Of a stretch of DNA of 12,833 bases, positions 2,041 to 12,833 are shown one piece after another (positions within the stretch are counted from its first letter, which is position 1; each line of letters begins with the position of its first letter). Source of the stretch: Holophagales bacterium (GTDB lineage: Bacteria > Acidobacteriota > Holophagae > Holophagales > Holophagaceae). Where the stretch lies: NCBI GenBank assembly GCA_031256155.1, contig JAIRRD010000231.1:1-12833 (forward strand), in the 5' to 3' direction. Below the pieces are notes generated by a model. It was not told the DNA's origin. It saw only the letters and a list, made by a program, of their open reading frames with translations, and did not search any database. A program made the translations under genes and the position numbers.

Positions 2041-3207
2041 ATGGCGATTTTTGATCCCACTATAGACTCAAGTGATACCATCCGGGCCACATGGGCAGAG
2101 GTGAACCTTGGCGCGTTGCGCTGCAATTTCCGGTTGATTAAGGAAAAAATCAACAACGCAAGACCTGTTGGCATTATGCTGATGGTCAAGGCCAACGCTT
2201 ATGGACACGGCCTTGTTGAAGTAGCCAGGACACTGTCCGATCTTGCCGATTGTATCGGTGTTGCCGTTTTGGAAGAAGGAATTTTGCTGCGCCGTGAGGG
2301 CATCAAAAAGCCAATCGTGGTTATGGGCGGCGTTTGGGGTGACCAGATACCGCATTTTATAAAGCACGATCTCATTCTTTCAGCCAGTTCAATGGACAGG
2401 CTGTTTCAGATAGATGATGCCGCCAGGGCAATGGGGCGGCGCGCAAAAGTGCATTTAAAAATAGATACCGGCATGGAGAGGGTGGGCATACACTACTTCA
2501 ACGCCCACAAGCTACAAGAAGCGGTCCTGAAATGCGCTAATGTTGACGCGCTTGGCATCTATTCGCATTTTGCCAATGCCGACGCCGAGGACTTGACACA
2601 CGCGAAATTACAACTGGAACGTTTTCAGGAAGTTCTGGCATTTTATGAAAAGAATTCAATACAGCGGCCAATAGCGCACATGGCCAATTCTGCGGCAATG
2701 CTGCGATTGCCTGAGAGCCATTTTGACTTGGTGCGCCCGGGGCTACTGCTGTACGGTGTCTATCCTTCACCGTTCGTTCCCGGCGACATTGACGTTTCGC
2801 CAGCTATGACGTGGAAGAGCAGGGTGGTTTACTTCAAAGTGGTTCCCCCTGGCCATCCGGTCAGCTATGGCTCAACGTGGGAATCCGACCACCCCGCACG
2901 GATGGTGACAGTTCCCGTGGGCTATGGCGATGGCTATTTCAGGAGCATGTCCAATATATCCCAGGTGATAATTAACAACCGCAAATACCCGCAAGTTGGC
3001 ACAATCTGCATGGATCAACTGATGGTGAATATTGAATGGGACAGTGCCTACAACGGCGATGAAGTAATATTACTTGGCTCGTCCGAAAGCGAGCGCATAA
3101 CTGTTGAAGACATGGCAGCATGGGCAAACACAGTGCCTTATGAAGTGTTTACGGCAATAAATGCCAGAGTGCCGAGGGTGTATAGCGGTTTAACTTATTG
3201 TAGTTAA
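2041..3207 (+). CDS. alr: Alanine racemase (PLP-dependent)
   Basis: Alr interconverts L- and D-alanine with pyridoxal phosphate, supplying D-Ala for the ligase step that feeds MurF. The protein has 388 residues, near the usual length. MVKANAYGHG places the PLP-binding lysine at Lys50, at the head of the fold-type III barrel. KIDTGMERVGI (140-150), SHFANAD (175-181), HMANSAA (213-219) and RPGLLLYG (232-239) follow. The C-terminal domain has VGYGDGY (293-299), with the second catalytic tyrosine at 295, and VGTICMDQLMV (319-329). ATG 2041 is the best start: it is 7 bp after mraY and behind a modest AGG-containing site. After the usual RVPRVY ending, the last residues (about YSGLTYCS) and the TAA stop are encoded by the first hairpin of the repeat at 3181, so the repeat has replaced or extended the native gene end. 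Placement after mraY, where murD is common, is noteworthy. Confidence 0.97.
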   Translation: MAIFDPTIDSSDTIRATWAEVNLGALRCNFRLIKEKINNARPVGIMLMVKANAYGHGLVEVARTLSDLADCIGVAVLEEGILLRREGIKKPIVVMGGVWGDQIPHFIKHDLILSASSMDRLFQIDDAARAMGRRAKVHLKIDTGMERVGIHYFNAHKLQEAVLKCANVDALGIYSHFANADAEDLTHAKLQLERFQEVLAFYEKNSIQRPIAHMANSAAMLRLPESHFDLVRPGLLLYGVYPSPFVPGDIDVSPAMTWKSRVVYFKVVPPGHPVSYGSTWESDHPARMVTVPVGYGDGYFRSMSNISQVIINNRKYPQVGTICMDQLMVNIEWDSAYNGDEVILLGSSESERITVEDMAAWANTVPYEVFTAINARVPRVYSGLTYCS

Positions 3208-3303
3208 ACCGCTATGCCGGGATTCGCTTGCGAATCACGGCCGCTCATAGTCCATAGGCGAGCTTGGCTCGCCGTAAATGGACTATGAAAGCGCAAGTTG
3301 CTA
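3181..3303 (+). repeat. Triple-hairpin repeat unit, copy 1 of 2 (123 bp)
   Basis: The unit consists almost entirely of three abutting inverted repeats. H1 is 3182-3195 paired with 3202-3215: 14 bp closed by the 6-nt loop TATTGT. H2 is 3216-3241: a 4-bp GCCG/CGGC base, one G-A mismatch, then 7 bp (GATTCGC/GCGAATC) around TT. H3 is 3245-3255 paired with 3278-3288 (11 bp), enclosing an inner 7-bp stem GGCGAGC/GCTCGCC (3257-3273) with loop TTG. The unit begins TATAGC and ends GCTA running into the next TATAGC, so short inverted termini bracket it. H1 contains the alr stop codon. All pairings are read directly from the bases; whether they form in DNA or RNA is inference. No T-run follows the stems, so a classical intrinsic terminator is not evident. 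Confidence 0.93.
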
Positions 3304-3426
3304 TATAGCGGTTTAACTTATTGTAGTTAAACCGCTATGCCGGGATTCGCCTGCGAATCACGGCCGCTCGTAGTCCATAGGCGAGCTTGGCTCGCCGTAA
3401 ATGGGCTATGAAAGCGAAAATTGCTA
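3304..3426 (+). repeat. Triple-hairpin repeat unit, copy 2 of 2 (123 bp)
   Basis: This is a direct tandem copy of 3181-3303 at a period of 123 bp, differing at only a handful of positions. One change lies in the H2 loop (TT to CT). Two A-to-G changes lie in the H3 outer stem and turn A-U pairs into G-U pairs on the + strand. The rest are in the single-stranded tail (GCGCAAG versus GCGAAAA). H1 with its TATTGT loop is identical. The copy ends in TTGCTATAG and runs directly into the hairpin at 3429. It lies in the convergent gap between alr (+) and the sugar aminotransferase gene (-). The near-identity of the copies indicates recent duplication or homogenisation. Confidence 0.93.
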
Positions 3427-3428
3427 TA

Positions 3429-3457
3429 GTGATTCTGTGTAAAATATACCGAATCAC
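3429..3457. terminator. Interrupted hairpin over the aminotransferase stop codon, possible terminator
   Basis: GTGATTC (3429-3435) pairs with GAATCAC (3451-3457). After one T-C mismatch the stem continues as GTGTA with TATAC (one G-U pair) around an AAA loop. The hairpin directly abuts repeat copy 2. Its right arm contains the stop codon of the - strand aminotransferase gene (3454-3456). It could end transcription from either side of the convergent pair, but no clear U-tract follows on either strand, so the terminator role is inferred from position and structure only. Confidence 0.5.
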
Positions 3458-4584
3458 TTGGAATCGTTATAAAAACTCAGCACGGATTTGGCCACTTCCT
3501 CTAACATCGCTTCGGTCATTTCAGGATAGACGGGCAAACTCAGGACTTCTTCGCTGGCTAGTTCTGTTTCCGGCAGAGACCCTTTTTTATATCCCAAATA
3601 TTCAAAACAAGGCTGCTTGTGCAGGGATATTGGGTAAAAGATGGCACTGCCAATGCCTTGCGCTTTGAGGTGAGCCTGTAGTTTATCGCGGCGACCGCGC
3701 TTTACGCGCACGGTGAACTGGTTATAGATATGGCGACCATCGGGTACAACTTCAAGGGGGAGTTGCAGGTCATCCTGACTTAAAGACTTCATTCTCTGCA
3801 TATACCATTTGGCGTTCTTTCTTCTGCCCTCGTGCCAGCCCTCAAGAAATGGCAGTTTTGCGCGAAGCACCAGAGCCTGGAATTCATCTAAGCGCCCATT
3901 CATGCCAACTTCGTGATGGACATAGACAGGTTCCATACCATGAACCCTGAGCCGCCGTACCTTTTGGGTCAGCGATTCATCATTGCGGATGAGTGTTGAA
4001 CCGGCATCTCCGAAAGCGCCCAGATTTTTGGTTGGATAAAAGGAGCATCCTGTTATTTGACCGAACTGGCCGGCGCTCTTGCCCCAACCTTTAGCCCCCA
4101 GGCTCTGACATGCGTCCTCAATAACCGGAATCCCTTTGGAATTGGCTATTTCCATTATTTTTGGCATATCGGCTAATTGGCCAAAGAGATGGACTGGCAT
4201 TATAGCCTTGGTGCGTGCGGTTATAGCGGCTTCAACAGCCCGCGGGGCTATATTGAAGGTAACGGGGTCAATATCAACAAACACAGGCACAGCACCAAGC
4301 CGTGCCACTACGCCGCCTGTGGCGAAAAATGTGAAGCTGGGCAGGATAACTTCGTCCCCATGACCCACGCCCAGTGCCATAAGAGCAACGAGCAGGGCAT
4401 CTGTACCACTGGACATACCAACGGCAAAGGCAGCGCCGCTGTAACCCGCCAAATCCGCTTCCAGGCCCGTTACATTTTCTCCAAGGACAAAGGTACAGCG
4501 ATCAATGAGTGTAGAAAGGCCATTCAGCACTTTTTGCTTCACAACAACATTTTGTGCGGCAAGGTCCAGCATCGGTACAGACAT
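3454..4584 (-). CDS. DegT/DnrJ/EryC1/StrS-family sugar aminotransferase
   Basis: This family uses PLP and usually glutamate or glutamine to aminate keto groups on nucleotide-linked sugars for surface polysaccharides, glycoproteins or antibiotics. Numbered from ATG 4584 (376 aa), the PLP features are SSGTDALLVAL (58-68), VHLFGQ (131-136), EDACQSLGA (156-164) with the cofactor-binding Asp157 and Gln160, and SFYPTKNLGAFGDAG with Schiff-base Lys186. NGRLDEFQA (229-237) and the C-terminal YPISLHKQPCF and LSLPVYPEMTEA complete the family pattern. ATG 4584 is preferred over the in-frame GTG at 4587 because the GGAGG site at 4590-4594 is 5 nt from the ATG but only 2 nt from the GTG. The exact sugar cannot be told. 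The partial fusion gene at the right edge could fit surface-glycan work, but no glycosyltransferases are in view. The gene ends inside the 3429 hairpin. Confidence 0.93.
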   Translation of the reverse strand: MSVPMLDLAAQNVVVKQKVLNGLSTLIDRCTFVLGENVTGLEADLAGYSGAAFAVGMSSGTDALLVALMALGVGHGDEVILPSFTFFATGGVVARLGAVPVFVDIDPVTFNIAPRAVEAAITARTKAIMPVHLFGQLADMPKIMEIANSKGIPVIEDACQSLGAKGWGKSAGQFGQITGCSFYPTKNLGAFGDAGSTLIRNDESLTQKVRRLRVHGMEPVYVHHEVGMNGRLDEFQALVLRAKLPFLEGWHEGRRKNAKWYMQRMKSLSQDDLQLPLEVVPDGRHIYNQFTVRVKRGRRDKLQAHLKAQGIGSAIFYPISLHKQPCFEYLGYKKGSLPETELASEEVLSLPVYPEMTEAMLEEVAKSVLSFYNDSK

Positions 4585-4705
4585 CACAGCCTCCGGTCAG
4601 ATATATTTTTGGAACCATCCATTTATAGCGGTTCCATATCAAAATTGAGTTCCATGATTTTGAGATGGAAATTTTTGGGATACTCTTCAATCACCGTAAC
4701 ACCTT
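4585..4705 (-). promoter_or_regulatory. Intergenic leader of the aminotransferase gene with ribosome-binding site and hairpins
   Basis: This 121-bp gap between the mqnD-like stop and the aminotransferase start holds a GGAGG ribosome-binding site (4590-4594, - strand). One stem-loop is GGAACC (4611-4616) with GGTTCC (4630-4635). A second is TTCCAT...ATGGAA near 4650-4671, extended by A/T-rich flanks. On the - strand a 12-codon ORF beginning ATGGATGGT (near 4623) ends in TGA overlapping the aminotransferase ATG as TGATG; it could be a leader peptide or chance. The string TATAGCGGTTCCATAT (4624-4639) matches the hairpin at 7433 at 14 of 16 positions. I see no convincing promoter, so cotranscription with the upstream gene is plausible. 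Confidence 0.45.
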
Positions 4706-11024: not shown

Positions 11025-12833
11025 CTAGCTCACATGGTAGTCCTTTAGGTATTTCAAAGTCGGCTCTGGCACTATCTGTGAAATACAATCAAAACGACGC
11101 TCTTCCAGCAAGGCGCGCACGCACGAAGCGCTTATTGGTGTCCCGTCCTGCCGTAGTTTTCGCGGGATTACGGTCACTTCTATTCCGCTGCGTGGCAATT
11201 CCTCGATCATCGCAAGGTTGTACTGCCTCGTGATAGGGTCTGTCGGCTCTTCTCCCACAAAGCGCTTCGAGATATTCAGCGAAGGCGCGATAGATTCCGC
11301 AAAAATCCTGATGTCTTCGCTCGCGTCGAGCTTCGCGTCCTTTGCTGAATCCTTCAAGAAATACTCTGGGAAGGTCATCAGCGAAATCATGAAACTCCCA
11401 CTTGGGAGGACCTTCAGTCTTCCCAAATCATCTGTCCCAGCCTTTACCAACAGTAGTCTGTCTTTAAATGGAAAGGACGATTTGTCTTCCTCGACAACGA
11501 ATATGTAAAGGAAATCGCATTGTTTCAGGGCCTCTTCAATTAAATATCTGTGTCCAAGAGTGAACGGGTTGCAGTTCATCACGATGGAGCCGATGACCCC
11601 ATCGCAGGATGTCTTTTCGCTCTTAAGGTGAGCCAGAAAGCCATCAAGCGATGAATTCGCATTTTGTCTCGCATCGGTCTCCCCCACGTCCAACCGTTTT
11701 AGCGGTATGAATTCCTTTCGGCGCGACATTTTGTTTCTGCGGTAATCGTCTGGATGGGTATAGTCATCGGAGCCACGCAGGAAATCGGAGAGGATGGAAT
11801 ATATCTTGTCTGCAAGAAGCCTGTATCCCCTGTGATTCATGTGGGCATTAGACAATAGCACTTCGCCATAAGTATGCGGTCTATCAAAAGCGGAATCAAG
11901 GGAGTAGAAGTGGACTCTTTTCGAATCAACGTAATGCCTCAAATTGTAAAAGTTTTTTCCTATGAAAACAACCATGTCGTTTTCGCGGATATTAAAATGT
12001 TCGATATGATAAAATATTCCTGGACTGCGACATACGCTGCCATAATTTAATACTCGAATTCTTTGTGATAGATCAGAGATATTGAGGAGACGCTGTAATT
12101 GGCTCTGTATTGTGTATTTGTCTTCTGCTAATATCCCTAACGCACGACAGTCACCAAAAAAATGTATGGTATTGTCATAATTGCTTGGATTATCAGTAGT
12201 GTAGCGCATGCCGTGAATCACATTGAAATACTTCGATCGTATATCCTTGGGATATGAGATGCCATCCCTGTAAATATACTCTGGAAGTTTACATACTTCC
12301 GAAATGTAGCCTTCATTGCAAGTGGGTAAATCTTCATAAAACGGCTTAAGAAAGCTCATTAGCAAATCACTACTTCTATTTAGATGGTTAATGTAGTGAC
12401 TTTGTGTCAACTTATGTAGAATTTCCAATGAACTCATATTTTCGACGACTCGACCTGGATCGCTTAAATCCAATATAAACATACGAGCCTTTATTTGTTC
12501 AATGATTTCAGACGCAATGTGCAGTTTTTCCAAATCCTCTATTTCAATGATCAGGGAATCCAAAGATACCACTGAGCAAGCCACACGAGACGATAGCTCG
12601 TGGCAAATTTTTGCAGAATCAATGATGGGTGTTACTATTACTGCATCAACAGTAGGGTGTAAATCAAGAAATTGCTTTGGTGCAACTACATCAAGATTAT
12701 ACGGAAACTGAAGTGATGGATTTTGGTCAATAATGCAGGTGACGGTTACCTCAGTCGCGTACAATTTCTCATAAAGCATTTTTCCAAGATCGCCGCCGCC
12801 ATAAATCGCTACTCTTTTCCAAGAATTATTATG
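11025..12833 (-). CDS. Rossmann / SGNH-hydrolase-like / CitC-like nucleotidyltransferase fusion, 5'-truncated
   Basis: The reading frame stays open to the right edge with no stop or start codon after the internal Met at 12777-12779, so the true N terminus is outside the window. The upstream codons read RVAIYGGGDLGKMLYEKL, a glycine-rich Rossmann-like nucleotide-binding start. Numbered from that Met (584 aa), residues 1-90 continue this fold. About 204-335 is SGNH-like: block I FFGDCRALG (207-215) has Cys211 where the catalytic Ser is expected, VLNYG (243-247) resembles the central Asn block, and NAHMNHRGY (311-319) resembles the C-terminal His block. About 394-580 matches the nucleotidyltransferase domain of citrate lyase ligase CitC: GSIVMNCNPFTLGHRYLIE (397-415) with the HxGH-like core, FPFKDRLLLV (436-445) and SASCVRALL (550-558). 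Usual CitC has an N-terminal acetyltransferase domain, absent here, and no citrate lyase genes are nearby, so a role in glycan or small-molecule activation is likelier. Substrate unknown. Confidence 0.82.
   Translation of the reverse strand, partial: HNNSWKRVAIYGGGDLGKMLYEKLYATEVTVTCIIDQNPSLQFPYNLDVVAPKQFLDLHPTVDAVIVTPIIDSAKICHELSSRVACSVVSLDSLIIEIEDLEKLHIASEIIEQIKARMFILDLSDPGRVVENMSSLEILHKLTQSHYINHLNRSSDLLMSFLKPFYEDLPTCNEGYISEVCKLPEYIYRDGISYPKDIRSKYFNVIHGMRYTTDNPSNYDNTIHFFGDCRALGILAEDKYTIQSQLQRLLNISDLSQRIRVLNYGSVCRSPGIFYHIEHFNIRENDMVVFIGKNFYNLRHYVDSKRVHFYSLDSAFDRPHTYGEVLLSNAHMNHRGYRLLADKIYSILSDFLRGSDDYTHPDDYRRNKMSRRKEFIPLKRLDVGETDARQNANSSLDGFLAHLKSEKTSCDGVIGSIVMNCNPFTLGHRYLIEEALKQCDFLYIFVVEEDKSSFPFKDRLLLVKAGTDDLGRLKVLPSGSFMISLMTFPEYFLKDSAKDAKLDASEDIRIFAESIAPSLNISKRFVGEEPTDPITRQYNLAMIEELPRSGIEVTVIPRKLRQDGTPISASCVRALLEERRFDCISQIVPEPTLKYLKDYHVS

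Follow-up and report, generated by a model that had tools for sequence, protein, structure and literature searches.

Tandem three-hairpin units at the 3' end of alr

The window analysed here, a stretch of 12,833 nt, carries the alanine racemase gene alr (2041-3207, plus strand) and, convergent with it, a gene encoding a DegT/DnrJ-type aminotransferase (3454-4587, minus strand). At the end of alr, two 123-bp units that are 96% identical lie head to tail and gap-free at 3181-3426. On the plus strand copy 1 (3181-3303) consists of a left TA and a 121-bp body (3183-3303, TAGCGG...GTTGCTA), and copy 2, which follows at a spacing of 123 nt (3304-3426, or 3304-3428 with its right flank), is made up of a TA common with copy 1 (3304-3305), a body at 3306-3426 and a right TA at 3427-3428. 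A covariance model (R1) built from 27 aligned copies of the element matches the two at 3181-3305 and 3304-3428, with scores of 146 and 143.5 bits respectively. Directly to the right of copy 2 is a small inverted repeat (3427-3474, GTGATTC...GAATCAC), which, like another element tip, starts with TATAGTGATTC. Elsewhere in the window a 584-aa protein is encoded at 11025-12779; the C-terminal third resembles citrate lyase ligase, and no Pfam match at E 0.001 covers the N-terminal part.

Each unit is composed of three abutting hairpins, which in both copies are read on the plus strand. In copy 1, hairpin 1 (3183-3214) is a palindrome of the form TAGCGGTTTAACT-loop-AGTTAAACCGCTA that is also the left terminal repeat and carries an IS630-like box, TTATTGTAGT; it is followed by hairpin 2 (3216-3241) and by a nested hairpin 3 (3242-3293) with an outer stem CGCTCATAGTCCAT/ATGGACTATG..AGCG and an inner stem GGCGAGC/GCTCGCC. 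The corresponding hairpins of copy 2 are located at 3306-3337, 3339-3364 and 3365-3416. Stems comprise 13-14 bp in the first hairpin, 4 + 6/7 bp in the second and 11-14 + 7 bp in the nested third, and the ten bases at the right end of each body are without pairing; in copy 1 this tip (3294-3303) ends in GCTA, the inverted-repeat partner of the TAGC on the left. The tandem pair folds at -137.6 kcal/mol, against a mean of -77.1 for shuffled sequences (z -13, with none of 200 shuffles as good). The single 121-nt bodies folded as RNA give z -8.5 and -6.9, and copy 1 folded as DNA gives z -10.8 for the plus strand and -9.4 for the minus strand. The two near-identical units with their abutting stems and the TATAGC...GCTATA ends had been recognised in a preliminary description of this DNA, and both are confirmed by these data. 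In the four single units that were folded, the terminal ends were in every case unpaired with each other and the 3' tip was free, and this arrangement of three hairpins in series without end-to-end pairing is an unusual feature of the element.

The reading frame of alr enters copy 1 by 27 nt, and the last eight codons (YSGLTYCS) and the stop codon (3205-3207) are derived from the TA and copy 1, giving a protein that ends ...RVPRV-YSGLTYCS-stop. We compared this site with the three other genomes of the genus, designated G001, G002 and G003, the window's own genome (a 1.62-Mb assembly that is 69% complete) being G000. The alr orthologue of G001 ends ...RVPRVYV-stop and is without the element, G002 has an aged copy of its local type directly 3' of alr and G003 has a different sequence after the gene. 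The sequence adjoining alr and the element in G002 resembles that of the window, with similarity to the region of the aminotransferase gene. Twelve overlaps between copies and the ends of mechanically called ORFs were counted, six of them 27-28 nt long, and the element may therefore have lent the same tail to other genes.

Copy number and phylogenetic range

When 150 candidates were scored in each genome, the covariance model matched at least 145 sequences in G000, 81 in G001, 104 in G002 and 9 in G003; the highest of these counts may be low because only 150 candidates per genome were scored, and the weaker matches include partial copies. The copies in G003 rest on the covariance model, weak single blastn matches in G003 and in a genome of the same class having been set aside. 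Under stricter filters the model identified the element in four of 77 genomes of the family, namely the four of this genus, and in none of the 73 other family genomes, which represent ten other genera. A blastn search of G000 gave full-length matches on many contigs (best 40 of 174 candidates), and the hairpin 1 pattern, allowing up to three mismatches, occurs at 184 sites in this genome as against 21 for the reversed control. Scanning of named genomes with a sequence pattern returned at least 49 stretches, and among the matches listed all derive from two Holophagaceae/Holophagales MAGs. The sample code of one element-bearing MAG, Nt197, denotes the humus-feeding termite Neocapritermes taracua, as given in part of PMC7024585, and the window's own genome is probably also of termite-gut origin. 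No match to the element was found in the plasmid and phage collections.

Taking 145 copies of 123 bp, the family would account for approximately 1.1% of the 1.62-Mb assembly. In 17 of the listed G000 copies the first base lies no more than 10 bases from the start of a contig, and the family is therefore a likely cause of the fragmented assembly.

Genomic context of the copies

Context was examined for 74 copies of the window's own genome, these being the 75 top-scoring of 87 matches less one that is cut by a locus end (one other is perhaps present twice). Only two lie inside an ORF of at least 100 aa, 24 have no called gene on one side and 48 are located between two genes, whereas 4872 of 6268 other TA sites in the same loci fall within ORFs. 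Nearly all copies are thus outside called genes. The proposal that the unit lacks any coding potential is slightly inaccurate, since copy 1 provides the end of alr. Among the 48 intergenic copies, 13 are in convergent, 22 in tandem and 13 in divergent gaps, close to the distribution of other intergenic TA sites in these loci (253, 357 and 283 respectively), and the median distance is 57 nt to gene starts and 69.5 nt to gene ends. Genes are therefore avoided, but without any preference for gene ends.

These counts bear on two functions suggested in the preliminary description, a bidirectional transcription block and a stabiliser of mRNA 3' ends. The position of the window copies in a convergent gap, their very stable fold and the presence of a copy directly after alr in G002 as well are what one would expect of a functional element acting at gene ends. 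However, copies are equally near to gene starts and gene ends, no terminator-like site was found at 3100-3520 in the window, where the copies are without a T-tract, and changes in the stems of young copies show no preference for G-T over A-C mismatches (see below). Neither function is supported by these observations, and we consider it very unlikely that the element has either role.

Ends, target site and empty sites

Among 67 copies of 110-135 nt with flanks in G000, 45 start with TATAGC and 47 end with GCTATA. The 38 G000 copies that are clean at both ends have no fixed base in the left flank beyond the TA, and the right flank is frequently T-N-G because another TATAG-ended repeat abuts. The terminal inverted repeats are perfect over TAGC/GCTA only, and with the common right end 7 of the 12 outermost positions match; terminal inverted repeats are therefore present, but they are short, imperfect and weak for a MITE.

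To locate empty sites, the flanks of 87 clean copies were joined around one TA and searched against the fetched loci, with the best match taken for each copy. Twenty-six of the 87 matched across the junction. In 11 of these the best match is to an end of the element itself within that locus, and another duplicates a copy already recorded. In the remaining 14 informative cases the empty site has a single TA in nine, a gap-free CA in one and is not clean in four. Seven of the nine single-TA sites are gap-free, and the other two have small gaps away from the TA. Two of the nine cases are weak, with identities of 76% and 83%. From these comparisons the body is best read as TAGC...GCTA, 121 bp long in the window, with the TA duplicated on insertion. 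The 123-bp unit originally described is accordingly correct as the repeat spacing, whereas the transposable body is 121 bp and the most plausible reading of the outer TA is a duplicated target.

Several of the insertion hosts are older repeats, including copies of the same family (for example L020 and L016), and a GAGC-tipped copy (L171) is inserted in a TAGC-tipped one. In a GTGC-tipped subfamily of G001 the site is C-TA-G in all seven listed copies that have both flanks. According to a title in the reference list of PMC2170065, an IS630-associated transposon prefers to insert at the TA of 5'-CTAG-3'.

Further repeats with related tips are present in the own-genome loci. These contain 252 distinct TATAG(C/T)NNTT ends, as against 31 raw matches of a scrambled word, and the ends fall into 10 clusters of three or more, two of which are the ends of the element described here, together with 55 singletons. 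Several more palindromic miniature families have the same TATAG(C/T)NNTT tips. A second abundant TA-flanked repeat has the ends TAGTCGTTTTAC...GTTGACTA, which occur 24 times in the fetched loci of G000 (at L017 and L044, for example, close to the hairpin element), and copies of the hairpin element are inserted into or beside it at several TAs.

Conservation of pairing and drift of individual copies

In the alignment of 27 copies, 96.3% of 1220 cells contain a standard pair, compared with 38.5% at most when the partners were slid by one to three columns. Both-sided changes are found at 23 of 47 pairs (13.4 in shuffled alignments) and in 141 cells (45.5 shuffled), although of the five measures of covariation one, the count of pair types, is not elevated relative to shuffles (44 versus 43.1). 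Comparison of the G000 and G002 consensus sequences reveals 11 pairs changed on both sides, a single one-sided change (to G-U) and 33 unchanged pairs. Pairing thus persists as the sequence of the element diverges from one species to another. Dispersed copies, predominantly intergenic and with conserved pairing, are what the preliminary description had anticipated from a search of the genome, and both the location (2 of 74 within genes) and the both-sided pair changes bear this out.

Conserved pairing of this strength might suggest a family of structured RNA genes or riboregulators, duplicated by chance at this locus. We consider this very unlikely: no Rfam family reaches its gathering score in the window, promoter-like sites are absent from 3100-3520, nested insertions occur at TA, and the element was found in just one of the 11 genera searched, with more than 100 matches in two of its genomes.

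The individual copies present a different picture from the consensus sequences. In 51 young copies of G000, one-sided changes in the stems produce 29 G-T cells and 32 A-C cells, at 10 sites each, so that there is no G-T excess that would indicate selection at the RNA level in young copies, and this candidate was rejected. Seventeen of the 51 form a subfamily with one common A-C mismatch in hairpin 1, and perfect pairing is therefore dispensable for spread. Among the private changes of 50 young copies, those at paired positions comprise five G-T, six A-C and eight others. Paired positions are nevertheless hit less often than unpaired ones (19 variants in 90 columns versus 15 in 35, or 0.43% versus 0.90% per cell, p=0.03). 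Across the six subfamily consensus sequences there are 259 Watson-Crick, six G-T, no A-C and five other pairs, an excess of G-T that is only a hint because the six share ancestry and are not independent. We read these data as indicating that individual copies drift once inserted and that the hairpins are kept by the lineages that are still spreading. Since pairing in the consensus is kept by both-sided changes and single copies decay, the hairpins appear to serve mobility rather than the host.

The both-sided changes could alternatively be mutational in origin, if template switching within quasi-palindromes copied one arm onto the other. This explanation bears on nothing but the hairpins and would leave the MITE interpretation intact. 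The strong DNA folds of both strands would favour it, as would the lack of wobble preference among private changes, which is expected when single copies are not selected for folding. It does not readily account for the lower frequency of private changes at paired positions, and one-sided intermediates do exist: at one position the pair is U-A in 15 sequences, C-G in 10 and U-G in two. The six G-T against no A-C pairs in the consensus sequences, within the limit just given, also hint at tolerance of wobble pairs only. We regard template switching as possible but doubtful as the main source of the paired changes.

IS630-type transposons as candidate mobilisers

Matches to the DDE_3 transposase family were found in all four genomes (two in G000, eight in G001, five in G002 and six in G003). 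Those in G000 are two fragments only, of 102 aa and 69 aa (the latter with a stop), although in an assembly that is 69% complete this scarcity of transposase may be only apparent. All four ORFs tested in NCBIfam have the IS630 transposase model NF033545 as their top match, and two of them exceed its cut-off. One transposon, at locus L067 of G001, is whole within its contig: it has the form TA, TAGCGGTTCCCC...GGGAACCGCTA, TA, is approximately 1 kb long and contains an ORF of 132 aa next to one of 157 aa. In G000 an ORF with zinc-ribbon motifs adjoins an IS630 fragment (L074:1-855, contig C89); from its motif we take this ORF to be TnpB-like.

A second end type, TA followed by TAGCNNTTNNNNTTATNGTAGTYCATAGCC, is present in all four genomes, with no match for the reversed-pattern control; several of these ends adjoin DDE_3 matches or IS630 genes and others do not. 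The same end type is additionally found in G002 on classical inverted-repeat miniatures about 116 bp long (115-116 bp at C7:275-390, C122:388-503, C149:3148-3263, C158:4138-4252 and C207:3413-3527), which carry the IS630-type end directly.

Ends of this second type carry TA followed by TAGCNNTT, together with TTATTGTAGT at the same offset as in hairpin 1 of the element, whose left end has the TAGCNNTT tip as well. We compared the ends of the element with ten such ends, not all of which adjoin a transposase gene. Over the inner 18 nt of its left end the element matches the best of the ten at 14, 15 and 14 positions in G000, G001 and G002 respectively; of 20000 shuffles, 2, 0 and 3 did as well. 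For the right end the corresponding numbers are 73, 138 and 3650 of 20000, and in G002 this end is therefore no better than chance. The match to the IS630-type ends is thus clear at the left and weak or absent at the right. For the IS630 type whose ends are most similar, no full-length copy was found; those seen are one-ended at contig edges, or broken.

Intergenic hairpins at high copy number are also characteristic of REP/REPIN palindromes, which are spread by Y1 RAYT proteins. Mobilisation of the element by a Y1 (RAYT/IS200) transposase would be in keeping with its hairpins, its copy number, its location mostly outside genes and the one Y1_Tnp gene of G000. No Y1_Tnp match (E <= 0.001) was found, however, in G001, G002 or G003, which have 81, 104 and 9 element matches, and the TA target and TAGC...GCTA ends recur in resident IS630 transposons. 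With a Y1 gene in only one of four element-bearing genomes, a RAYT/Y1 mobiliser was rejected, and a REP/REPIN-type origin is very unlikely.

Comparison with known repeat elements

The tips of the element are the same as those of resident IS630 transposons, and the duplicated TA is likewise a feature of the IS630/Tc1-mariner group, although members of that group are autonomous and encode a transposase (within ~1 kb in L067). The Correia/NEMIS elements of Neisseria have a tip of the type TATAGTGGATTAAC, which looks like that of the Holophagaceae element. The transposase of ISY100, an IS630/Tc1-mariner transposon, inserts by cut and paste at TA, as described in PMC2170065, and the TA was duplicated normally in 34 of 39 products.

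The closest precedent is RUP of Streptococcus pneumoniae, which is described in parts of PMC2229807 and PMC3049150 as a 107-bp repeat of about 110 copies with a TA duplication and short terminal repeats like those of IS630-Spn1, an IS630 transposon being its proposed mover. Compared by description, the Holophagaceae element is similarly short and of high copy number, with a duplicated TA target and short terminal repeats that are clearly IS630-like at the left end, and it probably works alike but differs in fold plan and host. A passage of PMC3049150 describes RUP as AT-rich, with terminal repeats that pair with one another; the ends of the Holophagaceae element, in contrast, remain unpaired with each other, and its three separate hairpins are arranged in series.

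According to portions of PMC2229807, Correia/NEMIS elements are non-autonomous, with TA termini, target duplication, stem-loop transcripts and 24-bp terminal repeats. On this description they resemble the Holophagaceae element in all of these respects except the last: the latter has shorter repeats and its ends do not pair together. In the same source CIR of Caulobacter and Brucella is the exception among bacterial repeat elements, whose stem otherwise results from pairing of the two ends; CIR has two independent hairpin arms, a linker and a GANTC motif, and is of uncertain mobility (PMC2229807). The element described here is thus like CIR in having independent hairpins instead of end-to-end pairing; the two arms, the linker and the GANTC motif of CIR set it apart, and the hosts differ.

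A model for propagation of the element

The preliminary description favoured a MITE-like, non-autonomous repeat family, and this suggestion is supported, with 145 dispersed matches in the element's own genome, TA-flanked ends, empty sites and the ends of resident IS630 transposons all in agreement. We conclude that the 123-bp unit is most probably a non-autonomous MITE with a 121-bp body, mobilised in trans by transposases of the IS630/Tc1-mariner type (a probability of roughly 85%). An IS630/Tc1-mariner-type transposase, supplied by complete transposons in these bacteria, would bind the ends of the miniature element, excise it and insert it at a TA, which would be duplicated, and the copies that survive would be chiefly intergenic. 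In the window, two head-to-tail copies with one common TA would have inserted where alr ends, and the reading frame of this gene now stops inside the element. The three hairpins appear to aid the element's own propagation and not any single neighbouring gene. The copy number, the ends, the TA at most informative empty sites, the conserved pairing and the left end in common with IS630 transposons are observed directly, and from them mobilisation in trans and a role of the hairpins are inferred.

One conceivable manner is that the three hairpins are a conserved cargo, carried in turn by different IS630-type transposases, with the folded strand being what selection sees. Within the genus, subfamilies differ in their tips (TAGC, GAGC and GTGC, the last with the CTAG target), and the hairpin plan is the same throughout, with hairpin 2 nearly constant; in four of the six subfamily consensus sequences hairpin 1 is followed by TA. 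We consider this reading unlikely, although it merits mention. If it were true, hairpin 1 would resemble a minimal transposon sitting at the element's left end, and folding of the nascent RNA or of replicating DNA would hide the left transposase site and couple movement to transcription or replication. Hairpin 1 also occurs alone, as a 32-bp palindrome flanked by TA or TATA (L012:2643-2679, L038:1491-1529 and L197, the last being G000:C117 and the same as L070), and these solo copies are possibly the smallest element of the group.

The identification of the Holophagaceae element as an IS630-mobilised MITE would add a high-copy family of this kind to the Acidobacteriota. Among the open-licence titles listed, none concerns a MITE family in Holophagaceae, and the one Acidobacteria genome paper among them that mentions MITEs has the term in its reference list only (PMC8841776). 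The Holophagaceae are a group with termite-gut members, and the hundreds of copies of this probably IS630-linked family provide material for asking why bacterial MITEs retain stable hairpins.
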